The notes under the pieces are model-generated. The model was not told the DNA's origin. It saw nothing but the letters and a program-made list of their open reading frames with translations, and made no database searches. Below, one piece after another: positions 3,922 through 23,344 of a stretch of 23,727 nt of DNA. Positions within the stretch are counted from its first letter, which is position 1, and the number at the start of each line of letters is the position of its first letter. This stretch comes from a virus. The translations under genes were made by a program, and so were the position numbers. The DNA is taken from positions 1 to 23,727 of IMG/VR virus record IMGVR_UViG_3300020438_000278. One strand, 5' to 3'.

Positions 3922-6900
3922 TTAAGCGAAAGCGAAACGTCCGTTACTATTCCATCCATTTAATATAGCTAATTTGCCATCTTTTCCATTACCAATATCA
4001 ATTAAAGGTACATGAGAACCTGATAGTTCAATCAAACCGTCATCTCCAAATGTAATACTTTCAACTTTATAACATTGATTGGTTTTTTCGTCTTCTCGAA
4101 TAGTAAACAACGATCCAGCATAAGCAGCTAACACATTTGAACTATTGAAATTTACGTTTGTAGCAAATTGAACTTCATCTTCGTTTGAGTTCCAATAATA
4201 AATATTATGTGAACCTGTAATCGTATCTTTACTTACGACTTTACCTCCTTCAAGAATAGCTCCATTATTAAATCTACTTGTATGCTGCGTTGTTGAAAAT
4301 ACTCTTATATAGTCTCCTGGTTGTAATCCTTCTATATAATGAGGAGCTGTTTTAAACGTAATTAAATGTGTTGTTTTTTCTCTTACACTTAAAACATATT
4401 TACCAAAAGTTTTAGCGTGTTGTTCACTTGTACAAAAACCACTTAAATCAAAAGTTTCAACAGGATCATTGTTGTGATTGTTTCCAGCTAATTTAACTAC
4501 AATTGATTTTGTTTCTGTAAAACCATTTATTGTTTCGTGTCTATATAAAATATTTGCTTGAAATGTTTGCCTGTCTTCTGGAGCAAGATAAGAAACATTT
4601 AAGTCATTAATATTTCCATCAGTAAATAATGCACTAATTTTAATAGCTTGATCTGGATCAATTTCATAACTACCGCCTTTATATGGAACAGAAGGTTTAA
4701 GACTAAACTTACCTCCAATAATTGTAAAATCTAATAAACAATAAGTAGCTTGTTCAAATATAAATTCTCTTAAGTTAACTTTATTTGAGATCATTCCGTC
4801 CCAAAATAATTTATTTGCTTTACAAAATTGTGCTGCTTCTTTCATGTCTCCTTTACCTGTTGTTTTGTTATAAGCAACAGAATTTGTATTAATAATTGAT
4901 CCTGCTCCTATTGTTTCATCAGTTAATAACGCATACGCAATATCTGGAAATAAATGTGTTGGACCGTCTGAGTTTTCTATTAAACGATGAACTTTAATTC
5001 CTTTTTTAATGTAAGCAGAAAACTGACTAAAGTTTGTCCATTCTTTTGAACTATCTATTTGTAATGCTGCATACGCTAAATCGTTATATGTAGAACTTGT
5101 ATCTTCTACTATTTCATTGCAGTAAACAATTTCATGCTCTGGCCCATCTAAATGACTTGATTGATCTCCATTAAATAACCAATGATCAGCAGCAGCATCA
5201 TAAGAATTTAACTCTATACCTTCAACAGGGATACGATCAAAACCTTCTACAGTAACTGTAAATCTTTGAGCTGGAAGAACAACATCTGAGTCATCATCAC
5301 TTGGATCAATATCTATTCTCGGAATAACAACTATTTCGTTATTTGTATAACCAGAACCAGTCCCTACAATATATGACCATTCAGCATAAGTTTGTTCAGT
5401 GCTTCTGTTATGCCAAAGATTTAATCTTACTTTAGCTGTACCAGTGCTTCCGTCTTCATCTTCAAGAAAAACATCTCGTGGATAAGCAGTTCCATTATCT
5501 AATATTACTTGAGCAGATTCAACTTCTAAAGTTTCTTGTTGACGTACATAATATAAATCTGGTCTTCCCTTTGGATAACCCGTAACAATAGGATGTCCGT
5601 AGCCTGGGTCACTAGAATCCTGTCCTGAACCAGGGATGCTTGGATCAATAACTGGATACATTTTTCCACCTAAACCATTAGCTTGTTGAGAATAATGAAA
5701 CTCAACTCCAGTTACAGTTTTTCCTCCACCAAAAACAGCAGGTACATCTTCTTCGTTATACGCACCAACAACAACATTTCCCCATGCAGGGCCAGATTTC
5801 TGATCTCTATTATCTGGAGCGTGATCAGGATGTATATATAAATTAAATAGTAATGATGTCCCTGCTCTTAAAATTAAAGTATCATTTGGCCCTTGAAAAG
5901 TAACGCTGCTATAAGATCCTGAGTTTCCTTCTCTATAAATACTTGTACCATTAGCTGCATTAAATCTTGTCCATTGTGTTTGACTTTCTCCAGTATATTT
6001 AAGTAAAGGAGCACTACTATCGCTACTGTATTGACCAACAGGATTATTTTCTCCTGTTGAATTTATATTTTTAATAATACCTGCTGTTGATAATCTTGAT
6101 GTAGAACCAGTGTATGCAGGATCGTTAGGATTAGTTATATCTGAATTACCTAAATTCCATTCTGCATTACTTAAATCTTCTTTCGTTAAGTTTAATTCTC
6201 TATTCCCTGCAAATTTAACAATAATATTATTAATTGTAGAACTAAAAGTTTTTATATCTGTATCAGAAAAAGCATTGTTTGAATTTAAAAGATTAACTTT
6301 TATACTGTTATTACTAATAACTGTTTTAATAACATCTGCTCCAGACCAAGGTATAAATCTATATTCATGTTGGATTTTAGGATGTTTAATCCTTATGTAA
6401 TTGTATTGAAATTCAGGGCTGCTTCCTTTAACACAGAACAAACCACTATGTCCTGAAACTTGAGAAGGCTTAGGAACAACATCTTCCCAATTATCTGTTC
6501 CTGATTGTCTTAACTGAAGCTTGAAAAAACTATATCTTTTAATATATTTATTAACAGTACCTAGTGTTAAACTAGACTTGCCTTTATAAATATCATCTAA
6601 AGCTTTTTCTGTTGGCTTGCTATTTACATTTGCAAAATTTATCTGTTTAAATACTTTAGATTTAAGTCCTATTTCTGTAATATCACAATCTCTATTGTCA
6701 GAAACCGTTCCAATAGCAGCTTTTTGAAGCGTATATGTTATTGCTGGATCGTTTAAGTCATTATAGTATTGTTCATAATAAAACTTATCAGATCTACCGT
6801 AAAGTTCAAAATATTTACCAGTATTGTTATACCACTCTGGATTATTAATATGATCTCCTAAATGATTATTTGGAGTGCATTGTATTCTACCTTTTTCAAG

Positions 6901-8208
6901 AACAGTAAACTCATAAGATCTATCACTTGTGCCATTCTCCCAAGGCGTTCCAGAAGCAGAAGTACATCTAACTAAGGCTGTTCCAAGCAAATACTGTTCG
7001 CCAAAAGAAATATCATCATCAGCCTTTTCTCTCATTGTTTGACTTATTGCATTAACATCTTCTACTCCATGTTCCATATAGCCAGGATCATTTCCTCTTT
7101 TATCTTTCCAATCAAGTTGATAGGCTCTTCCTCCTTTAGGATTGTTTGGCCCACCTATTACTTGATAAAAGATTTTTGCATTTTTAGGTATATCTTGATT
7201 GCCTAGTCTTACTTGAGCTGCATTGGCAGACCCAGTATTTTCAATTTTTATAAACCCTGCTCTTGCAGGCCATTTACCTACATTTTTTCTTCTTTTAGCA
7301 AGTGTATTTCTTGCTGGTGGAACTGTATCATCATCTAATTCTGGTGATATACGAAGCAGCTCATAAGGCAATCTAAAATAAGTAGCATTAGGAATAGGAT
7401 TACTTACACCAAATATTGCTTGAGTTGTAGGATTTCGTGTTCCTGAAAACCATTCTTGATTATTAATTTTAAATTTTTGTTTATTAGTTGCACTACCTTT
7501 TGTAATAAAAGGAATATTGTCACCAATTGGATTTGAAACATAAAATTCTTGATGGATTTTCTGTTCGTTATAGTTATGTAATAACAAATCACCTATTGCG
7601 TAACCTTTAAATTCTGGTCTTTCTGCTAACTCACCTAAAGAAAACATTCCTAATATTTTTAACTGCTGGTAACGACCCAAGCTAATTATCTGTGACCATA
7701 AAAGTTGAGAGTTAACTCTTATTCCACCAAAGCCATCTTCATCATTAAAATTAGCAAAAACAAGAGGAATAATATCTCCTAAATTTGCTAAATCTTGAAC
7801 ACTATTAAAACCAAACTGAGGAGCAAACCTTCTCGTACCAGCAATATCAGCAGTTCTTCTATTTGACCCCCTACTTGTATCTGGTTTAGGTGTTAACAGG
7901 TATGCAAGAACACTTAAAGCAACACCAACAACTACTTGTCCTAAAAGAGTTAAAGCACCTGCATTTGCATACGGAATAGCAACAACTAAAGGGCCATTTA
8001 CTAATTCAGGAATATGCTCATAACCTTTTGGTTTTTCTTTTGACTTAGCTGCTACTTGTTCAACAAATTGCCAATACTCTTCTTCTGTTATTCCAAGGAG
8101 GTTGCAAAGATCTGCTTCCGTTGGAAGTAACACCCTTCTACCAAAAGGTTGTCTAGCGGACACCAAATCACCACCTGGCCTCCGAATGTTTTTCGGTAAC
8201 TCAGCCAT
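3922..8208 (-). CDS. Tail tip host-specificity protein, lambda J-like (1428 aa)
   Basis: This is the largest gene here and the central tip protein, expected to close the tube and begin host contact. Residues 26-50 (LLPTEADLCNLLGITEEEYW) and a hydrophobic stretch at about 73-104 (VVAIPYANAG..VVVGVALSVLAYLL) form an N-terminal region that recalls lambda gpI fused to gpJ. Residues about 125-200 (APQFGFNSVQDLANLGDIIPLVFAN) open the J-type tip domain. The C-terminal third holds the conserved J-like part (AAQFCKANKLFWDGMI, then LSGFCTSEQHAKTFGKYVLSVREKTTH and GLQPGDYIRVFS). The middle (roughly 650-1000) is long, rich in Gly/Ser/Asp/Asn and not recognised. The ATG has GAGGAAGG immediately before it. 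A GTG at codon 26 is an alternative start. The first 39 codons overlap the end of the K-like gene. Confidence 0.88.
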   Translation of the reverse strand: MAELPKNIRRPGGDLVSARQPFGRRVLLPTEADLCNLLGITEEEYWQFVEQVAAKSKEKPKGYEHIPELVNGPLVVAIPYANAGALTLLGQVVVGVALSVLAYLLTPKPDTSRGSNRRTADIAGTRRFAPQFGFNSVQDLANLGDIIPLVFANFNDEDGFGGIRVNSQLLWSQIISLGRYQQLKILGMFSLGELAERPEFKGYAIGDLLLHNYNEQKIHQEFYVSNPIGDNIPFITKGSATNKQKFKINNQEWFSGTRNPTTQAIFGVSNPIPNATYFRLPYELLRISPELDDDTVPPARNTLAKRRKNVGKWPARAGFIKIENTGSANAAQVRLGNQDIPKNAKIFYQVIGGPNNPKGGRAYQLDWKDKRGNDPGYMEHGVEDVNAISQTMREKADDDISFGEQYLLGTALVRCTSASGTPWENGTSDRSYEFTVLEKGRIQCTPNNHLGDHINNPEWYNNTGKYFELYGRSDKFYYEQYYNDLNDPAITYTLQKAAIGTVSDNRDCDITEIGLKSKVFKQINFANVNSKPTEKALDDIYKGKSSLTLGTVNKYIKRYSFFKLQLRQSGTDNWEDVVPKPSQVSGHSGLFCVKGSSPEFQYNYIRIKHPKIQHEYRFIPWSGADVIKTVISNNSIKVNLLNSNNAFSDTDIKTFSSTINNIIVKFAGNRELNLTKEDLSNAEWNLGNSDITNPNDPAYTGSTSRLSTAGIIKNINSTGENNPVGQYSSDSSAPLLKYTGESQTQWTRFNAANGTSIYREGNSGSYSSVTFQGPNDTLILRAGTSLLFNLYIHPDHAPDNRDQKSGPAWGNVVVGAYNEEDVPAVFGGGKTVTGVEFHYSQQANGLGGKMYPVIDPSIPGSGQDSSDPGYGHPIVTGYPKGRPDLYYVRQQETLEVESAQVILDNGTAYPRDVFLEDEDGSTGTAKVRLNLWHNRSTEQTYAEWSYIVGTGSGYTNNEIVVIPRIDIDPSDDDSDVVLPAQRFTVTVEGFDRIPVEGIELNSYDAAADHWLFNGDQSSHLDGPEHEIVYCNEIVEDTSSTYNDLAYAALQIDSSKEWTNFSQFSAYIKKGIKVHRLIENSDGPTHLFPDIAYALLTDETIGAGSIINTNSVAYNKTTGKGDMKEAAQFCKANKLFWDGMISNKVNLREFIFEQATYCLLDFTIIGGKFSLKPSVPYKGGSYEIDPDQAIKISALFTDGNINDLNVSYLAPEDRQTFQANILYRHETINGFTETKSIVVKLAGNNHNNDPVETFDLSGFCTSEQHAKTFGKYVLSVREKTTHLITFKTAPHYIEGLQPGDYIRVFSTTQHTSRFNNGAILEGGKVVSKDTITGSHNIYYWNSNEDEVQFATNVNFNSSNVLAAYAGSLFTIREDEKTNQCYKVESITFGDDGLIELSGSHVPLIDIGNGKDGKLAILNGWNSNGRFAFA

Positions 8209-15045: not shown

Positions 15046-16074
15046 TTAGTCGTAGTTAGAAACTACGGTAGCGCGAGCTATACCGAGGTTCTTGTTTTCA
15101 TACACGGCTGACCAGTTTGCAACAGTCTGGAGCTGAGCAACAGTCGGATTCGTCGTAGTCACCGCCCATTTACTACCAACTGGGTGATAGCAATAATGAG
15201 CGTCATAACTGATCGCGTCGGACTTGGCCAAGATGTCTCTGTCTTGCTCAATGTCTAACGCTTGCATTTCGCCACTACCTACAGCACCAGGCTGGAAGAA
15301 GTACGCTGCATACTCAGTTGTTGCACCTGAGCCAGTCTTGGTTACATCATCTGAAACCAATACATTTAAGCCGCAGAAGGTAGGAACTTTATCGTCTCCA
15401 CCATAAGCATTAGCCATTGATCCGCCTGACTGAGTTGTGGATGTACCACGGGCCTCATTTGTGCTGACGTAATCAATAAGCTTCCTTTCGACCATGTCGT
15501 AATAAGTGTTGCTATGTATTGCAACAGCAGTTAACTTGTCGCCTTGCTCACCAAATTTTGCTCTGGCAGCAGCAACAGTTCTTGGACTTAAAACAGTTGG
15601 TGAATCTCCACTTTCTGAATCAACGCACATTGAGAAAAATGCGCTATTTGAATCGTTAGCGTTAAGAGATCCAAAGCAACCTTCTAAACCAGCAAGAAGA
15701 TCTTTTTGCTTTTGGTTGGCAATATAAGCAGCAAGCTTATTACCAATAGCGGCCATAGCATCAGAACCCGCAGCGATTGATGCAAGATCTCTTGCCTCAA
15801 ATGCGCGACCTCTATGTAATTGAACAGCTATTTGCTTTCCTGTTGAAATCTTGCCAGGAGTCAATGAAGTGCTATCAGTTAGAACCTCTTGATCACCAGC
15901 TAAGTTTGCACCCCAAAAAGGTACATTTATGAAGTCACCTTCTCCAGCGTTTAGTTCCGCCAATGGCTGCACAACACCAGACTGCAAGAAGCGGTCTAGA
16001 TTTGTGGTCGCTTGAACGACATAAGGAACAAAAACCTCTGGGATGATGACATCACTCCGACGAGTGGGAGCCAT
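15046..16074 (-). CDS. Major capsid protein (342 aa)
   Basis: This protein builds the icosahedral head. The opening VIIPEVFVPYVVQATTNLDRFLQSG, then FINVPFWGANLAGDQEVLT and LHRGRAFEARDLASIAAGSD, fits the gp13-like group of HK97-fold capsid proteins (about 330-350 residues). MAAIGNKLAAYIANQKQKDLL is the expected long spine helix, and a C-terminal part YHPVGSKWAVTTTNPTVAQL is also typical. The start ATG has only a weak TGGA site. The N-terminus starts directly with the capsid domain, without a delta domain, so the separate scaffold gene upstream must guide assembly; no maturation protease is seen. Confidence 0.9.
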   Translation of the reverse strand: MAPTRRSDVIIPEVFVPYVVQATTNLDRFLQSGVVQPLAELNAGEGDFINVPFWGANLAGDQEVLTDSTSLTPGKISTGKQIAVQLHRGRAFEARDLASIAAGSDAMAAIGNKLAAYIANQKQKDLLAGLEGCFGSLNANDSNSAFFSMCVDSESGDSPTVLSPRTVAAARAKFGEQGDKLTAVAIHSNTYYDMVERKLIDYVSTNEARGTSTTQSGGSMANAYGGDDKVPTFCGLNVLVSDDVTKTGSGATTEYAAYFFQPGAVGSGEMQALDIEQDRDILAKSDAISYDAHYCYHPVGSKWAVTTTNPTVAQLQTVANWSAVYENKNLGIARATVVSNYD

Positions 16075-16163: not shown

Positions 16164-16856
16164 TTAGCGGCTTTCGGCCATTTCCCTATACTTTCTCCAA
16201 ACTTCTGCGCCTTGTTGTCTATAAATCCTTGTCTGTTCGTCCATATTTTGTGTTTCAGGTAAGAAATATTTCAAGTCACCTTCTGATATTTTGCTACCCG
16301 AAACAGTTCCACCGCCCACTGCGCCACTGCCTCTTGCAATAGGCTTTTTAACAACCCATTTTGTTCTATCGTTTGCAGCAAGTTTCTTTTGGACAGCTTC
16401 TTCTACTGTCATCCGACTAAATTCATCAACATATACAACAGAACCATCTTCTCCTACTTCAAATTTATCTTTACCTAATTTCTCTAACGCATAATCTGTA
16501 TCATGCACCGCATTAGATAAAGCAGCCATAGCAGGTGAGATCAATTCGAGATCACGAATCTTCGCCTCAAGCTTTTTGATCTTGTCGTCTTTATCTTTTA
16601 CAGCATCACGGAATTGGCCCTCCCTTGATTCCAATGCCTTTGAGTAATCACCTTTGGCCTCTAATTCTTTCTGCTCTGCCTTTTGTTTAAAATCAAGTAA
16701 TTCTTGATAATCAGCAGGAACATCAGGCGTTTCTTTTTTCTTTAATTTGCCTATTAGTTCAAAGTTTTTTTTCTCTAATCCCTCAATGCTTCTTTTTAGT
16801 GCATCAAGTTCAGATGGATCAACAGCCGTAGGCTCTTGAATGTTTTCGTCAGACAT
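16164..16856 (-). CDS. Capsid scaffolding protein (230 aa)
   Basis: The protein is highly charged with heptad-like Leu/Lys/Glu pattern over residues about 15-110 (ELDALKRSIEGLEKKNFEL, DKDDKIKKLEAKIRDLEL), that is, a coiled coil. A middle acidic part (GKDKFEVGEDGSVVYVDEF), a Gly-rich linker (about 185-198) and a basic C-terminus (EVWRKYREMAESR) follow. This three-part build and the place just before the major capsid gene fit phage scaffolds whose basic C-terminus binds the capsid shell. It has no Ser-His-Asp protease signature. The start is 59 bases from the divergent + strand gene. Confidence 0.83.
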   Translation of the reverse strand: MSDENIQEPTAVDPSELDALKRSIEGLEKKNFELIGKLKKKETPDVPADYQELLDFKQKAEQKELEAKGDYSKALESREGQFRDAVKDKDDKIKKLEAKIRDLELISPAMAALSNAVHDTDYALEKLGKDKFEVGEDGSVVYVDEFSRMTVEEAVQKKLAANDRTKWVVKKPIARGSGAVGGGTVSGSKISEGDLKYFLPETQNMDEQTRIYRQQGAEVWRKYREMAESR

Positions 16857-16915: not shown

Positions 16916-17164
16916 ATGCCTAGCCTAATTAAAAAAGAAGAAGGCTTTACTGTTCGAGAATTAAGAGATTTACTATCAAAAGTTCCAGATGTTGACGGTG
17001 AAGGAAACGAAACAATGGTTTACGTCGTCACAGGAAACGAAATGGCTGACGTTATTACACTAGGTAAAGCCGACAGCCATGATGATGTGTTATTAGTGCC
17101 TGGTTTTTGGGCCAACGTAATGGAAGACCTTGAAACGCTAGACGATTTTATTGCTGACGATTAG
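16916..17164 (+). CDS. Lone + strand small acidic protein (82 aa), TVxEL-type
   Basis: This is the only plus-strand gene in the window. AGGA nine bases before ATG supports the start, and no comparable minus-strand frame exists here. The product is acidic (many Asp/Glu, tail LDDFIADD) and begins with a FTVRELRDLLSKVPDVDGEG segment followed by strands (MVYVVTGNEMADVITLG, DDVLLVPG). This helix-strand pattern is shared by many small phage proteins of unknown role. Its stop overlaps the stop of the basic protein gene on the other strand (TTAG), so the two are convergent and back to back. It looks like a moron-type insertion with its own expression. Function is unknown. Confidence 0.75.
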   Translation: MPSLIKKEEGFTVRELRDLLSKVPDVDGEGNETMVYVVTGNEMADVITLGKADSHDDVLLVPGFWANVMEDLETLDDFIADD

Positions 17165-18054
17165 CTATAGCCATACTTATATTTGCGCTTTAAATCTCTT
17201 TTCTTTGTTTTTATCTTGATAAATGTGTTTGTCGTGTTGTCATAAACCTTCCCGCCTCTTCTTTTCTTAACGCCACGCGGTTGCTTGTTTCCACCACCTA
17301 ATGCCTTAAATGTAGCTTTTCCATCGTTTTTGAAACTACCTGCAAACTTTCTAGCCGCTTTTGCATCTTTATAGATAAAAGCACTAGGAGATTTATCTCC
17401 TTTTGATTGAGCTAAGACTCTATAAGTTGGTTGGTTTTTGCTTCTTTTTTTATATGCTGTTTTAGCAGCACTTGTCTTTGTCTTACTTATCTTTCCTTTA
17501 GGAGTCTTAAATACTCCCTGTTCCATTCGCTTCGCTTTAGTCTTCTTCAATATTCTTTCTTTTGCTTGCTTTGCTTCCTGCTTAGGCTTATAAGAAGCTC
17601 TTGCCTTTGCTCCCTTCCTGATCTCAGCTTTTGCTCTTCTTTCTCCTCTTCTTATCTTTGCAGAAGATACCGCATCCTTTCTAACTGCTGATCCTTTAGG
17701 AGCCTTTCTAGCGGCTGCAAATTTCTTAGAAGAAGCAAGCTTATTAGGATTTGCTGCCCCTCTTTTTGCTTTTGCTGCACCTTTTCCAGTCAACCTATTA
17801 CTTACACGAGTCATTCCTGACTTCGCGCCACCTAATTGTCTATTCGCATAGGCTGATCTTCTTGCATCTCCTCCTTTCGCTGCTCCAGAAGCAGCTTTCT
17901 TTGCTTCTCTTAGCTTCCCTGCCTGATTCTTATAAGCCGCCCTTGCTTTTACATTCTTAGCTGACTTGCCTACTTTCCCGCCACCGCCAAAACTTCCTCC
18001 TCCTCCAGAAGAAGCAAAGCGGCCTATCTTATCCCTGACATATCGACGCGCCAT
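17161..18054 (-). CDS. Extremely basic, histone H1-like virion-region protein (297 aa)
   Basis: I choose ATG at 18054 (MARRYVRDKIGRFAS); a TTG two codons earlier is possible. By my count Lys+Arg are about 90 residues against about 14 Asp+Glu, a net charge near +76. Residues 1-30 hold a YVRDKIGRFASS motif and a Gly-rich run. Residues 30-200 are low-complexity Lys/Ala/Gly/Ser/Arg without long hydrophobic segments, like histone H1 or bacterial HctB. The last 100 residues look more folded (YRVLAQSKGDKSPSAFIYKD, VYDNTTNTFIKIKTKKRDLK). There is no enzymatic motif. It lies between the MuF protein and scaffold, so a packaged DNA-condensing or internal head protein is plausible. Alternatives are an RNA/ribosome binder or a scaffold partner. 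Confidence 0.75.
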   Translation of the reverse strand: MARRYVRDKIGRFASSGGGGSFGGGGKVGKSAKNVKARAAYKNQAGKLREAKKAASGAAKGGDARRSAYANRQLGGAKSGMTRVSNRLTGKGAAKAKRGAANPNKLASSKKFAAARKAPKGSAVRKDAVSSAKIRRGERRAKAEIRKGAKARASYKPKQEAKQAKERILKKTKAKRMEQGVFKTPKGKISKTKTSAAKTAYKKRSKNQPTYRVLAQSKGDKSPSAFIYKDAKAARKFAGSFKNDGKATFKALGGGNKQPRGVKKRRGGKVYDNTTNTFIKIKTKKRDLKRKYKYGYS

Positions 18055-18081
18055 AACCAAAAATCAAACATTACAGGTAGT

Positions 18082-18098
18082 TTAACCGTTACGGCTAA
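18082..18098 (-). other. Short hairpin in the gap before the basic protein gene
   Basis: On the minus strand TTAGCCG TAA CGGTTAA forms a 7-pair stem (one G-U) with a 3-base loop, 27 bases before the start of the basic protein gene. No T run follows, so it is not a normal terminator. It may protect or process the message. Confidence 0.35.
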
Positions 18099-18107
18099 CC
18101 TTTGCTA

Positions 18108-18299
18108 CTAATCAAAATACTTTTCTACAAGTTCAAAATCTTCACTACTGTCGCATGAAAGAATTAAGCCTTCTACCAACTCTCCCAATAAATCCTTCTC
18201 TATGCCTTTTGCTTTTTTTATTGCATCCGCCAAAAGACTAGGGACATTCTTGTCCCGTGGAAACCTATTCGTCATTTTGACAGCTTCTTCGTAAGTCAT
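18108..18299 (-). CDS. Small protein coupled to the MuF gene (63 aa), unknown
   Basis: The ATG overlaps the MuF stop as ATGA, so translation is likely coupled to it. The product is mostly helical: MTYEEAVKMTNRFP, then VPSLLADAIKKAKGIEKDLLGELVEGLIL and an acidic C-terminus (SSEDFELVEKYFD). It has no signal peptide or membrane segment. I recognise no family. Because it follows directly after the MuF-peptidase gene, a chaperone, inhibitor or immunity-type partner of that protein is conceivable, but this rests on position only. Confidence 0.65.
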   Translation of the reverse strand: MTYEEAVKMTNRFPRDKNVPSLLADAIKKAKGIEKDLLGELVEGLILSCDSSEDFELVEKYFD

Positions 18300-20530
18300 A
18301 ACAACTTCAAAGCTTTTTCTAGGTTATCATCAACCCATTGATAAAGCTTAGGAGCTTTTAATTGTAAACCTTCAGGATCAAGAACATAAACAGTAAAAGC
18401 TTCTGCAAACTGTTCAAACCTATTCTTAGAAGCATATTTTGTAACGTAAGTCATAGCTTTAGGATCAAAAGCAAAAGGATAAGCCGCACCTCCAGAGCCT
18501 TTGAAATGGACTTGATGGCCAATTTCGTGAATCATCGTAGACAACCATGAAATATCTCTATCCTGTGCTGCACTTACTGAAGGGAGCTTTTTTTCTTTAA
18601 AAATATACTCTTTTAAAGGGTTAGAAAGATCCCTAGCTTTTTGATCTAAAATTCCTTTTGCTGCTTTTTTAAATTCTTTAATATCTTTTTTTGTCAACAA
18701 ACGAGAAGTCTCCCTAAGTTTTGTATTGACGACAGAACTGCAAGCGGTTGTATATCCTGAATAAGTTTTTCCACAAGGTTTTAATATATTTTTAAGAACA
18801 TGAACATAAGCTTTTTCATCACCCTCTTTTATAGCTTTCTTTGAATATTCAAAGAATTTCCTTGAGTCTTCAAATTTCAAAGATTCAGGATAAGCATCAA
18901 AAGCCTTTTGAGTTGTTTTCAATTGATCTTCTATTACTTTCTTGCTATATCTTTTGACTTGTTTTTTGTTCCACCTTTCGCCACTCATTGCGAAATTATT
19001 AACTTGATTGCTTTTCTCTAAGAATTTACGCATCTTTTTACTGTTTTGGGCTGTTAAACCACCTTCGGCTTCTAAATTTTTCAATGTTTCTATAGTCATT
19101 TTTTCAATTCCTCCGAATTTTTCCACATAGGCTTCAACGGCTTGAGTGCTATGAATTTTTCCAACGGTGAAAGTCTCTTTTGCTTGTGCTGCTCTTGCTG
19201 CTTCTGCAAACTTCTCTAACTGCTTTTGATTCTTGATAACAATCGTTGGTTTCGAAGCGGTGATGCTTGTCAGTTTTGGATAACGCTTCTGCAATTGCGC
19301 CAAGCTGATTTCTGTTCCATCCGTTCTTACAAACTTTTTAATTGCTTCATCAGGTCCATACTTTTTAGCTAAACGATTAAAATATTTAGCCTTACCTTCT
19401 CCTAATGCTTCAATCTGTCTTGGTCCAGGTGTGAATTGAGATAACTTCCCTGACTTAGTTTTAGCCCTTTGTCCATGCAACCATTTCCCATAAGTAGTGT
19501 CAGCAGGAACCATCCCTCCTGTTGCGGCTCTTTTCCCTTCGGCTGGATCATCAAATTTTAACTTTGGATATTTCTTCCTCAAGCCATCCCAGTCAATAAC
19601 AGCAACAGTTGTTGACCTGCAATTAAAATGCTGTGGTGGTTCTGGCCCTTTGTCATATTCAAACTCTTGTCCATCAAGTGATGCACATAAAGCCGAGGTT
19701 CTACTATCTAACGTCGCAACATAACGGTACTTCTCTGTTACATCTTCATTTGCTTTATAAACTTGCTTACTTGCTGCATTAGAAACCTGATTAACACTTG
19801 TTCTAACAACTGTCCTGATCTGATGCCTAGCCATTTTAAAGCCAGCGTCACCAGATAACGCCGCTTGTAATGGTGTTCCAGCTCTTTGACCAAACTCCAA
19901 ATTACCCATTAACTGTCGAACAATATCTTCTGTAGGTTCACCAGATAAAAGACCTGTTCTAACCGTTTGCTTAAAGTTACTCAGCTCCCTAGAGGCAATT
20001 CCTCTAAATGCTTTCTCAACAGTGTCACCGTTAGGCAGTGTTAATTGTGCTCCTTGCGCTGCTGTTAAATCAAACGGGCCTGTTGCTCTTAACGTGACAA
20101 CACTAGGGTCTTTTGTGACTACAGCTTTCGCAAAGTCTGGACTTACTGCAACAGTTTGAACGCTATAACCTGCTGGATTTAATTCGCTTCTTAATACTCC
20201 ACTAGGTAATGCCTTTTCTATTTGACTTTCTACAAAACCAGCTTGAACATCTGCAATTCCTTCTAACTCCTTAATCATCACCGCAACACTTTCTTTTCTC
20301 CAAGTACCTAGTGATTCTTTTGTCTGTTTCAATAATGCTCTTAATCTTGCGGCTTTATATGACGGCTTCTCTGAATCATCAATCTTTGCTAACTGCTCAA
20401 TTGCACGAACAAGAACTTTTTTATTAGCTTTTACAAGTCTATTTTGAACCCCATTACTAAAGCGATTTAAGTCAATAGCGTTCCGATACAGAATCGCTGG
20501 TGTGCCTTCTTTCTTTATTTGCGGGGCCAT
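18296..20530 (-). CDS. MuF (SPP1 gp7-like) head morphogenesis protein with C-terminal zinc metallopeptidase-like domain (744 aa)
   Basis: Residues 1-230 form a charged helical region like the portal-binding N-terminus of MuF proteins. The MuF core is at about 235-315: VVRTSVNQVSNAASKQVYK, VATLDSRTSALCASLDGQEF and PPQHFNCRSTTVAVI (Cys304). A spacer follows (350-640; basic, helical, with a Cys586/Cys597 pair). The C-terminal 100 residues hold IHEIGHQVHF with H668, E669, H672, then NRFEQFAEAF at 703-712 where E706 or E710 can be the third ligand, and APKLYQWVDDNL. This HExxH...E order resembles anthrax-lethal-factor-like/zincin domains found in toxins. Typical MuF proteins are 300-450 residues, so the tail is an extra domain. 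It would sit inside the head near the portal and may be injected. Effector or maturation function is not proven. Confidence 0.85.
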   Translation of the reverse strand: MAPQIKKEGTPAILYRNAIDLNRFSNGVQNRLVKANKKVLVRAIEQLAKIDDSEKPSYKAARLRALLKQTKESLGTWRKESVAVMIKELEGIADVQAGFVESQIEKALPSGVLRSELNPAGYSVQTVAVSPDFAKAVVTKDPSVVTLRATGPFDLTAAQGAQLTLPNGDTVEKAFRGIASRELSNFKQTVRTGLLSGEPTEDIVRQLMGNLEFGQRAGTPLQAALSGDAGFKMARHQIRTVVRTSVNQVSNAASKQVYKANEDVTEKYRYVATLDSRTSALCASLDGQEFEYDKGPEPPQHFNCRSTTVAVIDWDGLRKKYPKLKFDDPAEGKRAATGGMVPADTTYGKWLHGQRAKTKSGKLSQFTPGPRQIEALGEGKAKYFNRLAKKYGPDEAIKKFVRTDGTEISLAQLQKRYPKLTSITASKPTIVIKNQKQLEKFAEAARAAQAKETFTVGKIHSTQAVEAYVEKFGGIEKMTIETLKNLEAEGGLTAQNSKKMRKFLEKSNQVNNFAMSGERWNKKQVKRYSKKVIEDQLKTTQKAFDAYPESLKFEDSRKFFEYSKKAIKEGDEKAYVHVLKNILKPCGKTYSGYTTACSSVVNTKLRETSRLLTKKDIKEFKKAAKGILDQKARDLSNPLKEYIFKEKKLPSVSAAQDRDISWLSTMIHEIGHQVHFKGSGGAAYPFAFDPKAMTYVTKYASKNRFEQFAEAFTVYVLDPEGLQLKAPKLYQWVDDNLEKALKLL

Positions 20531-20533
20531 TTA

Positions 20534-21967
20534 TCACTCTTCAACTTGTACTGTTTCTTCTTCTTTTTCCTTCTTCTCAGGTGGCTCCATTTCAATTAAT
20601 CCTGCTACTTGTGTTGCTTCAACTTCTTCTTCAACATCAAACTCATCAGGTAATACATTGCCCTCGGCCAACATCTTTAGCAAGCTTTCTTGGCTGATTG
20701 TATTAGCTGTATAAAGTTGAAGAACGCTGTTGATCTCTTGAGGATCTAAACGAGATGCTAAGAAGTCGCGATTGACATAAGAACTACCCGCCTCAACACC
20801 TAAATAATCAGCATGAAAACGCAAACTATTATCAATTAAATCCTGAACCTGTTGCGCGATATAAAGCATCGTGGCATCTGATTGACTTCTATCAATGGCC
20901 TTAGAAGTCGCCGTCTCGGCACTGAGTTTTTGACCAAGGATTGCGGCGAGGCCCAATTCGTTAATTTGAGACGCTATCTCTTTAAGTCGTTCTTGTTGTG
21001 CTGAAAAACTACTACCGCCTGGTTCTATATATTCAATTCTTGCTTCGGCTGGCATCGCAAAAGCTTCCCCTGGACCAGCACTAATTTCACTATCACTTGG
21101 AGGCATCCCAAAGATAGACAGCATCGGAACAGCCGAGATATGCAAGATATTGTCGTAATCGCTCTGTATTTGATAATGCTTCAAATTTAATTCAGCTATA
21201 TCGCTCATCGGTGGTCTTGATTCCATATATCCAACCTTGTTTGCATATGCAACAGAGAAAGGAATGTAATCAAGTGATGTTGTTCCTTCTTCCTGAATAA
21301 CCCAATCGCTTTTCTCTTTATTCTTACGATGAATTTCAAAGTTTCCTGGCGTTAATACCCTGATCTGTTGAACTTCTTTTACTCCATACAAACCGTCTTC
21401 AACCAACACTTGTTCAGCTAATCGAAGCTGTATTAATTCATCTTTTCCATCTTTCTTTTCTGTTCTCCAACCAATAATGTCCCTTGGTGTGTAAATACTC
21501 CAATATGGACGGCCTTCTCCTGTTTCTAAAGATGGACTATCAACAAGACAGCCAATATGTCCGTACCTGAGAAGCTTGCGCGTTAACTCATAGGTAAATA
21601 TAGAAATATCGTTTCCACTAAGGTCTATATCAAATAAATCTTCTCGTATAACATCAGCAGTGTCATTTAACTGGACAGGTTTACGAGTTAACATACCCGC
21701 CAACATCCTTTCAATTCTGATGAAGTAAGGAGATAAAACACTTCTTGCTAACCGAGCGTCATAACTTAAATCTGATTCGCGTTCTTCTTGTGGAAGATAT
21801 TTTCGATGTTTACTTCTTATCTCATACGTTCCTTGAACAATCGTTTCAGGCAAAATCCAATGCGGCTCTTGATTCAACCATTGCTGGTTAGGGTCAGATA
21901 CCTTATTAACTTTTGCTTCCGCAATACCTCTATAAGTTCTATATCCACTGTATGCACTGAAAGCCAC
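20534..21967 (-). CDS. Portal protein, DUF4055-type (477 aa)
   Basis: It starts with GTG preceded by AAAGAGG ten bases upstream. The portal is the dodecameric ring at one head vertex through which DNA passes. The N-terminal layout (WILPETIVQGTYEIRSKHRKYLPQE, then AGMLTRKP), the YGHIGCLVDSP block (about 130-142), YWSIYTPRDIIGWR, and LGLAAILGQKLSAETATSKA with the following helix are standard for the DUF4055 family. The last 45 residues are very acidic (EEEVEATQV, KEKEEETVQVEE), probably a flexible tail. The stop TGA is followed at once by TAA and the MuF ATG. Its place after the large terminase is the standard order. Confidence 0.87.
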   Translation of the reverse strand: MAFSAYSGYRTYRGIAEAKVNKVSDPNQQWLNQEPHWILPETIVQGTYEIRSKHRKYLPQEERESDLSYDARLARSVLSPYFIRIERMLAGMLTRKPVQLNDTADVIREDLFDIDLSGNDISIFTYELTRKLLRYGHIGCLVDSPSLETGEGRPYWSIYTPRDIIGWRTEKKDGKDELIQLRLAEQVLVEDGLYGVKEVQQIRVLTPGNFEIHRKNKEKSDWVIQEEGTTSLDYIPFSVAYANKVGYMESRPPMSDIAELNLKHYQIQSDYDNILHISAVPMLSIFGMPPSDSEISAGPGEAFAMPAEARIEYIEPGGSSFSAQQERLKEIASQINELGLAAILGQKLSAETATSKAIDRSQSDATMLYIAQQVQDLIDNSLRFHADYLGVEAGSSYVNRDFLASRLDPQEINSVLQLYTANTISQESLLKMLAEGNVLPDEFDVEEEVEATQVAGLIEMEPPEKKEKEEETVQVEE

Positions 21968-21982
21968 GGCGTTAAATCCTCT

Positions 21983-23344
21983 TTAATAGATTCTAATTCC
22001 TGTTCTGCTACCCGCACGGGCATACAGAATAGAGAACTCTCGATATACACAGTATCCTAGTGCGTCATTCATGTGATCGAAACCATTAAGCTTATCTGGT
22101 TGTTGTGTTTTTTCATCCCATGATTGAAGTTCAAGGCACTCAATCACACGTCGCACACGGGAGCTAACCTCCAACCTTGATTCTCCCTTGGAGTTACATA
22201 AAAGATTTTGTAAAGTCTGGACTCGATCTTTGATTGCGGGGTTTGCTCGCGGCGACATGTTTTCAAAGCCGTAAGATTGGAGTATGGATATATCTGTCCT
22301 AGAGGCGTTTGCGTTGGTTGAGCGTTGCGAGCCTGAAGCATCTGGAAATACCTGAATTTTACGATCTGGATAACGCCTAACGATTTCCTGAGCTAGTGCG
22401 TCAGTGTCGTGAGCTTTCGCTATTTCATCTATTATGACGAGCTTATTTCCGTCCCGCACACATACGACAGCGTTTGTATTATCTACGTTGAAATCAATGC
22501 CTATTTTGAGAATTGAATCACTGTAATCTGGGAAATCATCTTTAACGTGAATATCCCTAGAGAACCGATCATATACAGCTCCAGTGGTTAGGTTGACCCA
22601 TTGCCCCAGCAAGTAAGCCTTTATTAATTGTTCCGAGTAATTAGATTTAAGACTTTCGATGAATCCGTCAGGAAGAAAAGGATTATCCATGCTGCGGGCC
22701 TGTATTAATGCGGTGTCTTCTGTTGCTTCCTTGTCGAATGTATGAAACGCCCACCCATATCCTTCTGGGGTTGTTGAAGCATAGAACTGTTGATTGTTTC
22801 CCGATCTCAATCTTGCCAGTGCCATATTCATGGCATTTGTAGCTTCACCCATTGGGATCGTATCGGCCTCATCAAAGCCAACGGCGCATAAGTTTTGACC
22901 GCGTAAGCGTTGATAAGTCAGGATCGTTCTAAGCAATATTTGATGATTTCCTTCAGCAAAATGAAGCGTATATTCAGGCAAAGGACTTGCCCTAAAAGTG
23001 AAAGGAATTTCCCACTGGTCTAATAAATCATTAAGCGTTCGGATCAGAATATCCCGAACCATAGGCGCGGTTGGCTCGAAGACAGCACTAACAAAACCAA
23101 CATTATCGGCGGCAATCATGCAAGCCTTAGCAACCAAGCCATGCGTTTTTCCTGCTCCGAACCCACACACAAGGCCCAATTTTCTCGATTCCGTGTTCAG
23201 GCAGAATTTCTCCTGGTGCGGTAAGAGTCCTTCAAGTATTCGCGCCTTTACTTCTTCTGCTGTTGGCAAACTATTAATAGAAGATTGATAAGCAAAAGCG
23301 GTAAGCGGTTCGTTATCACATATTCCGGCAATTAATGAAGTCAA
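21983..23344 (-). CDS. terL: Terminase large subunit (453 aa)
   Basis: This is the DNA-packaging motor. Walker A is GFGAGKT at 61-67, Walker B is CAVGFDEA at 153-160 with D158/E159, and coupling motif residues STTPEG lie at 190-195. The nuclease domain keeps D284 (KIGIDFNVDN), D335 (VFPDASGS) and D427 (FDHMNDALGY), so both activities look intact. Total length is typical. It starts at TTG whose TTGA overlaps the stop of terS; a second in-frame TTG lies at codon 26. No ATG exists before the ATPase core. Lacking recognisable cos or pac data, the packaging type is not decided. Confidence 0.93.
   Translation of the reverse strand: MTSLIAGICDNEPLTAFAYQSSINSLPTAEEVKARILEGLLPHQEKFCLNTESRKLGLVCGFGAGKTHGLVAKACMIAADNVGFVSAVFEPTAPMVRDILIRTLNDLLDQWEIPFTFRASPLPEYTLHFAEGNHQILLRTILTYQRLRGQNLCAVGFDEADTIPMGEATNAMNMALARLRSGNNQQFYASTTPEGYGWAFHTFDKEATEDTALIQARSMDNPFLPDGFIESLKSNYSEQLIKAYLLGQWVNLTTGAVYDRFSRDIHVKDDFPDYSDSILKIGIDFNVDNTNAVVCVRDGNKLVIIDEIAKAHDTDALAQEIVRRYPDRKIQVFPDASGSQRSTNANASRTDISILQSYGFENMSPRANPAIKDRVQTLQNLLCNSKGESRLEVSSRVRRVIECLELQSWDEKTQQPDKLNGFDHMNDALGYCVYREFSILYARAGSRTGIRIY

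Follow-up and report, generated by a model that had tools for sequence, protein, structure and literature searches.

Organization of the head gene cluster

The DNA analysed here, referred to as the window, is a stretch of 23,727 bases from record IMGVR_UViG_3300020438_000278, which belongs to an uncultured relative of viruses that infect marine cyanobacteria. Its head genes are closest to those of the cyanosiphoviruses KBS-S-2A, S-H1, MED4-117, and MED4-184. Along the minus strand, the cluster opens with the terminase large subunit (21983..23344; PF03237 and PF17289), followed by the portal protein (20534..21967; phrog_145, E 1e-111; DUF4055), the MuF minor head protein (18296..20530; PF04233, E 5e-16; phrog_241, E 3e-103), a 63-aa ORF (18108..18299; phrog_36872), and a strongly basic protein of 297 aa with a net charge of +76, encoded by an ORF with an ATG start (17161..18054). 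Next comes a convergent, acidic 82-aa ORF on the plus strand (16916..17164), whose stop codon overlaps that of the basic gene, and then, again on the minus strand, the scaffold protein (16164..16856; phrog_206, E 1e-20) and the major capsid protein (15046..16074; phrog_247, E 5e-77; PF20036). An earlier reading of this DNA by itself (the sequence-only reading) had placed the basic gene in the head cluster between MuF and scaffold, which is essentially right, the 63-aa ORF and the convergent ORF also intervening.

The basic protein contains 20.2% K, 10.1% R, and 4.7% D+E (60 Lys, 30 Arg, and 14 acidic residues, exactly as counted in that reading) and no Cys. It is an outlier within the window, with a net charge of +25.6 per 100 aa against +5.4 for the next highest gene product; the K+R content of the next-highest window gene is 17.8%. 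The N-terminus reads MARRYVRDKIGRFAS, and the RDKIGRFAS motif that had been pointed out there occupies residues 7-15. The tails of histone H1 and the bacterial H1-like proteins are rich in Lys, Ala, Gly, and Ser and poor in acidic residues, and the composition of the basic protein resembles theirs. However, the designation "histone H1-like" was not supported as a family assignment: the window protein matched no family in Pfam or PHROG at E up to 1, no PDB sequence at E up to 1, and no structure among the PDB and viral models by Foldseek at E up to 0.001, and six variants searched against Pfam at E up to 5 yielded no linker-histone, HU, or otherwise relevant family. The protein further differs from the H1 and H1-like proteins in its predicted hairpin and in being encoded by a tagged gene of a phage head cluster. 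PF04233, the MuF domain present in the neighbouring gene, was not matched by the basic protein either. With no match to any Pfam or PHROG family tested or to any phage isolate record, the protein has so far been invisible.

A constant N-terminus and a predicted hairpin

Direct search recovered 13 loci, and more were found via scaffold and opposite-strand-ORF searches. All 22 close variants start with M(A/G)R(R/K)YVRDxxGRFA and continue into a Gly-rich stretch. In the window, alignment and motif scan delimit an N-terminal tag at residues 1-14, MARRYVRDKIGRFA (18013..18054, minus strand), a putative head-targeting signal, followed by a Gly-rich linker at residues 15-30 (17965..18012, minus strand), which has low pLDDT at residues 16-27. 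Across 12 aligned variants, the invariant residues of the tag are M1, R3, Y5, V6, R7, D8, G11, R12, F13, and A14, and 15 of the 18 invariant columns of this alignment fall within the first 33 residues.

The AlphaFold2 model of the basic protein had a mean pLDDT of 61.6 and a pTM of 0.26. Its most confident part is a predicted helical hairpin at residues 32-89 (17788..17961, minus strand), in which ten-residue blocks reach pLDDT 73-91; examined for the winged-helix globular domain of linker histones, the model shows helical hairpins and low-confidence strands. The sequence-only reading had described a more ordered C-terminus, which was not supported: the block means for residues 181-297 are pLDDT 41-68, and the confidently predicted hairpin lies close to the N-terminus. 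No enzymatic domain was detected in the tested close-family bodies, and no conserved enzymatic fold, which would have spoken against a head-internal DNA-neutralizing protein, emerged in the C-terminal part, the C-terminal half being modelled at low confidence. A profile of the hairpin matched 26 other tagged proteins and none of 655 shuffled controls. A body made up of repeated, homologous hairpins was not supported in general, since the profile occurs once per close-family protein and twice only in L125.

The coding status of the gene was assessed by substitution rates. For the shared ungapped segments of the 22 close variants, pooled dS was 0.81 and dN 0.19, giving a dN/dS of 0.235, and shifting the frames of the same alignments by one or two bases as a control gave 1.08 and 1.28; this pooled ratio is a summary rather than a test, as pairs of variants are non-independent. 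The contrast between 0.235 and the values above 1 in shifted frames indicates that the ORF is a real gene.

Exchange of segments between variable bodies

Among the 22 close variants, length ranges from 183 to 529 aa and net charge from +46 to +146, and in all 22 the charge density lies between +23 and +29 per 100 aa and Cys is absent. The bodies are differing assortments of recurring segments, the order of which is always compatible. Free permutation of the segments was rejected, because not one order inversion occurs among the 22 variants; gain, loss, and replacement are indicated instead. The exchanged segments are under purifying selection (dN/dS 0.24). The body is made of exchangeable, conserved segments and is not one featureless basic tail. 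This change of reading follows from the exchange of segments between near-identical phages, which is invisible from a single sequence.

The exchange is most evident in six loci (L002, L003, L008, L010, L022, and L027) in which the portal, the N-terminal half of MuF, the scaffold, and the capsid are 90-98% identical to those of the window, counting genes held whole by the contig, and in which the basic gene aligns to that of the window over 33% to 100%. Two variable islands are present, one comprising the MuF C-terminal half and the 63-aa ORF and the other the basic gene, and these islands reassort. The MuF C-terminal half of the window matches that of L004 at 100% over 58%, up to the end of the L004 contig, and the basic gene of the window matches that of L002 at 97% over its full length; the 63-aa ORF of L002 is unrelated at the DNA level.

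Segments are also shared between diverged phages. Residues 193-293 (17176..17478, minus strand) form an exchangeable segment with 83% identity to L006/L007, for which dS is only 0.19, against a dS of 2.0 for the capsid and saturation for portal and scaffold; in the tag, synonymous sites are saturated between the window and L006/L007, and the amino acids are kept. Likewise, a C-terminal tail segment of 38 residues (260-297; 17164..17277, minus strand) is 97% identical to L011/L012, with a dS of 0.09 against L011, whereas the first 25 codons of the same pair have a dS of 1.8. Such low segment dS between diverged phages indicates that the segments moved recently and that the tag was inherited and kept by selection. 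Exchange at one locus between phages with near-identical capsids points to strong, changing selection on the basic protein.

The tag in distant phages

The sequence-only reading had suggested a search for RDxxGRFA N-termini in phage head modules, and such N-termini do recur there, attached to one type of protein. A scan with the N-terminal alignment returned 60 loci. Because the confirmation step of that scan could favour basic sequence, the plain DNA pattern YVRDxxGRFA was also scanned, using neither composition nor neighbours. At least 73 distinct cases with enough sequence were obtained, 62 N-terminal and 11 internal among the matches listed. Taking a body as basic when its K+R content is 10 or more percentage points above D+E, all 62 N-terminal cases among the matches listed are basic, compared with one of the 11 internal cases, which lies just at the limit (Fisher p 2e-11 among the matches listed, a value that overstates independence, as the 62 N-terminal cases are partly interrelated). 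The stretches carrying N-terminal cases hold a terminase, portal, MuF, scaffold, or capsid gene in 54 of 60 among the matches listed. In L079, L085, L087, L098, and L108, profile search found terminase, phrog_145 portal, and minor head genes next to the tagged ones, and a phrog_145 portal is present in all distant groups tested.

Several loci contain more than one tagged gene, three in a row in L077 and L085 and two close together in L078 and L079. The tags of these tandem proteins agree at 10-14 of 17 residues, and their bodies have no blastp similarity; in L098, L104, and L108, the tagged bodies are partly related. Tandem proteins that are alike in tag but not in body are what would be expected if a common sorting tag served different cargoes. 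The position of the tagged genes varies as well: they lie directly between terminase and portal in L075-L080, L087-L097, and L102, and immediately upstream of the terminase, next to helicase/primase-type genes, in L081, L082, L085, and L100. L087, L088, and L102 represent a second group, with tagged ORFs of 594-822 aa between terminase and portal whose basic products likewise consist of segments that are shared and exchanged.

The internal occurrences of the motif include those in MuF proteins (L119, L123, and L155), among them one right before an ADP-ribosyltransferase domain (L119, 10361-11842, minus strand), in an ART-PolyVal protein (L116, 1710-4229, plus strand), in a ddrB-ParB protein, and in an XkdF-like protease protein. 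It has been argued that MuF, MuF-ART, and polyvalent-type proteins are packaged and injected (PMC5512222), and the company that the internal motif keeps, small as the numbers are, is suggestive of packaging. A J-domain-like region with HPD was seen in tagged basic proteins of L013 (6001-7275), L104 (3976-4980), and L108 (7479-8483); that of L013 matches the Pfam DnaJ family (PF00226) at E 8e-5, below the family cut-off.

All tagged loci come from metagenomes. A tblastn search of 50,697 phage records returned no relative of the basic protein, a result weakened by low-complexity filtering; the first 50 kb of cyanophage P-SS2 contain no RDxxGRF N-terminus, and a motif scan of bacterial genomes gave no confirmed relative. 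A literature search for the motif written as "xxGRF" found nothing, which is a weak negative, as motifs are seldom printed in that form. The basic protein is lacking in KBS-S-2A, S-H1, MED4-184, and P-HS2; since these are near relatives in culture, head assembly in the lineage can proceed without it. The MuF-scaffold slot of KBS-S-2A, S-H1, and MED4-184 holds several small basic ORFs (43-92 aa, K+R 20-40%), which share the position of the basic protein but have no RDxxGRF and no detectable similarity to it. In the cultured-relative loci L016 and L015, the small unrelated basic ORFs lie at 5824-7215 and 4964-5702, respectively.

A putative internal head protein and the alternatives

Given the tag, the charge, the place in the head cluster, the segment exchange, and the purifying selection observed here, we propose with moderate confidence that the basic protein is a tagged, hypervariable internal head protein of a tailed phage that lines the packaged DNA. 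The constant N-terminus, RRYVRDxxGRFA with the Gly linker, would recruit the protein to the prohead via scaffold, portal, or MuF. The strongly basic, partly helical body would then lie on the packaged DNA and displace small counter-ions; a DNA-binding role is suggested by the charge taken by itself. For a genome of 40 kb, as in the isolate relatives, about 100 copies at +76 each would neutralize one-tenth of the phosphates. At infection, the protein would probably exit the head with the DNA. Exchange of segments between phages makes its body hypervariable, as would suit a protein that, like the T4 internal proteins, encounters differing host factors shortly after entering the cell, for example restriction, the nucleoid, or further DNA-directed systems. 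In favour of the head-internal reading we counted the place between MuF and scaffold, the motif scan, the tandem tags, the constant charge density, the segment exchange, the dN/dS, and the motif inside MuF, MuF-ART, and polyvalent proteins. Against it we counted the absence of the protein from cultured relatives and of any relative from the 50,697 phage records, the lack of a recognized head maturation protease in the window, and the tagged genes of L081, L082, L085, and L100, which lie outside the head genes proper.

Charge density is the best conserved property of the protein, and this, together with the cluster position, would also be expected of a passive counter-ion or core protein, packaged to condense DNA or load the head but neither ejected nor directed at a host target; segment exchange would then be tolerated, as only charge and helicity would matter. 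We consider this unlikely, because a dN/dS of 0.24 within segments means that sequence is kept and not charge alone, because length and total charge (+46 to +146) vary threefold at a near-constant capsid, which would be odd for tuning of the DNA load, and because close relatives do without the basic protein.

The many tagged genes directly between terminase and portal, and the same portal family, phrog_145, in all tested distant groups, could instead speak for a late nucleic-acid binder outside the virion, for example a packaging accessory or a binder of RNA or ribosomes, its motif binding portal or terminase. This is improbable too, as the gene moves freely among slots, tandem copies have unrelated bodies, and the motif also occurs inside MuF-fused effectors, where an accessory of one enzyme would have no need of it.

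The position of the motif at the MuF/ADP-ribosyltransferase junction of L119 and the J-domain-like region of the distant tagged protein of L013 (PF00226, E 8e-5, below cut-off) would fit a delivered, toxin-like effector whose C-terminus is enzymatic or targets the host, as in the MuF polymorphic toxins. That the basic protein itself is such a cargo seems very unlikely, given that the tested close-family bodies contain no enzymatic domain, that no Foldseek match was obtained at E up to 0.001, and that the composition is unlike that of an enzyme.

Finally, a drifting or selfish low-complexity sequence of no set function, maintained by recombination on lysine- or alanine-rich repeats, is scarcely credible despite the low complexity and the gain and loss of segments, since the N-terminal motif is invariant, the charge density is constant among the close variants, the protein occurs in many phage groups, and the dN/dS of 0.24, against control values above 1 in shifted frames, speaks against neutral drift of the gene.

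Relation to known packaged proteins

The T4 internal proteins IPI, IPII, IPIII, and Alt carry a capsid targeting sequence, and the surface of IPI has been described as basic (PMC3012670). The resemblance of the proposed head-internal protein to these is one of architecture: both are head-module proteins, several per phage, in which a short conserved N-terminal stretch is joined to diverse bodies, and for both, prohead packaging and counter-defence use can be proposed. However, no sequence relation was detected, as neither PHROG (E up to 1) nor PDB sequences gave a match that would indicate homology to IPI, IPII, IPIII, or Alt, and RDxxGRFA is unlike the T4 signal. The bodies are also longer here, far more basic, and exchanged segment-wise. 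No head maturation protease is among the head genes identified in the window, a 23.7-kb fragment, and the tag would therefore probably not be cleaved as in T4.

The MuF polymorphic toxins and polyvalent proteins (PMC5576092, PMC5512222) share with the basic protein the gene cluster and the combination of a constant head-associated part with an exchangeable remainder, and some of them contain the RDxxGRF motif internally. The basic protein differs from them in lacking a MuF domain and any known toxin or enzyme domain, and the ORF that follows it lies on the other strand.

A broader possibility, which we put forward only tentatively, is that RDxxGRF serves phages that have a phrog_145 portal and MuF as a general signal for loading proteins into the head. 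Its cargo would mostly be modular basic DNA-binding proteins and also J-domain-like proteins and MuF-linked effectors; the basic cargo would be a kit of exchangeable segments under host-defence selection, an analogue of the T4 internal proteins that arose independently in uncultured aquatic phages. If the tag does load heads, phage proteins that accompany the DNA could be predicted from a single short sequence, even in phage groups that lack cultured members and in which these genes are not annotated. Alongside T4, there would then be a second and apparently unrelated system in which hypervariable internal proteins carry a constant packaging signal.

Elements adjoining the basic gene

The C-terminal half of MuF, which varies between near-identical phages, contains a HEIGH zinc-peptidase-like motif and has weak, sub-threshold matches to ATLF and M90 profiles; a related end is present in MED4-117/184. 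The window MuF looks like a MuF polymorphic effector. Directly behind it lies the acidic 63-aa ORF, with 99% DNA identity only in L004, which is also the only listed locus to share over half of the window MuF C-terminal domain. The 63-aa ORF covaries with the MuF C-terminal half and is a candidate immunity protein. This candidate occurs in phages related to lytic-looking cyanophages.

The 82-aa opposite-strand ORF has a D+E content of 24% and a net charge of -17 per 100 aa. It sits in the middle of the head operon, is found with 59-99% identity in 18 other loci as a steady companion of the basic gene, and is absent from the examined annotated slots of KBS-S-2A and MED4-184. Its product is a possible partner of the basic protein. 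A histone-chaperone-like role was rejected, as the NAP match (E 0.11) is expectable from any acidic sequence; the model of this protein was poor (pLDDT 48).

An imperfect palindrome, GTTAGCCGTAACGGTTAAAC (GTTAxCCGTAACGGTTAAAC; 18080..18099, minus strand), is located 25 bp upstream of the ATG of the basic gene. It is present in a single copy in the window, where none is expected, and it is recognisable in most close variants. The site is a short conserved spacer between two hypervariable genes, and the palindrome is a candidate operator, promoter part, or exchange joint.
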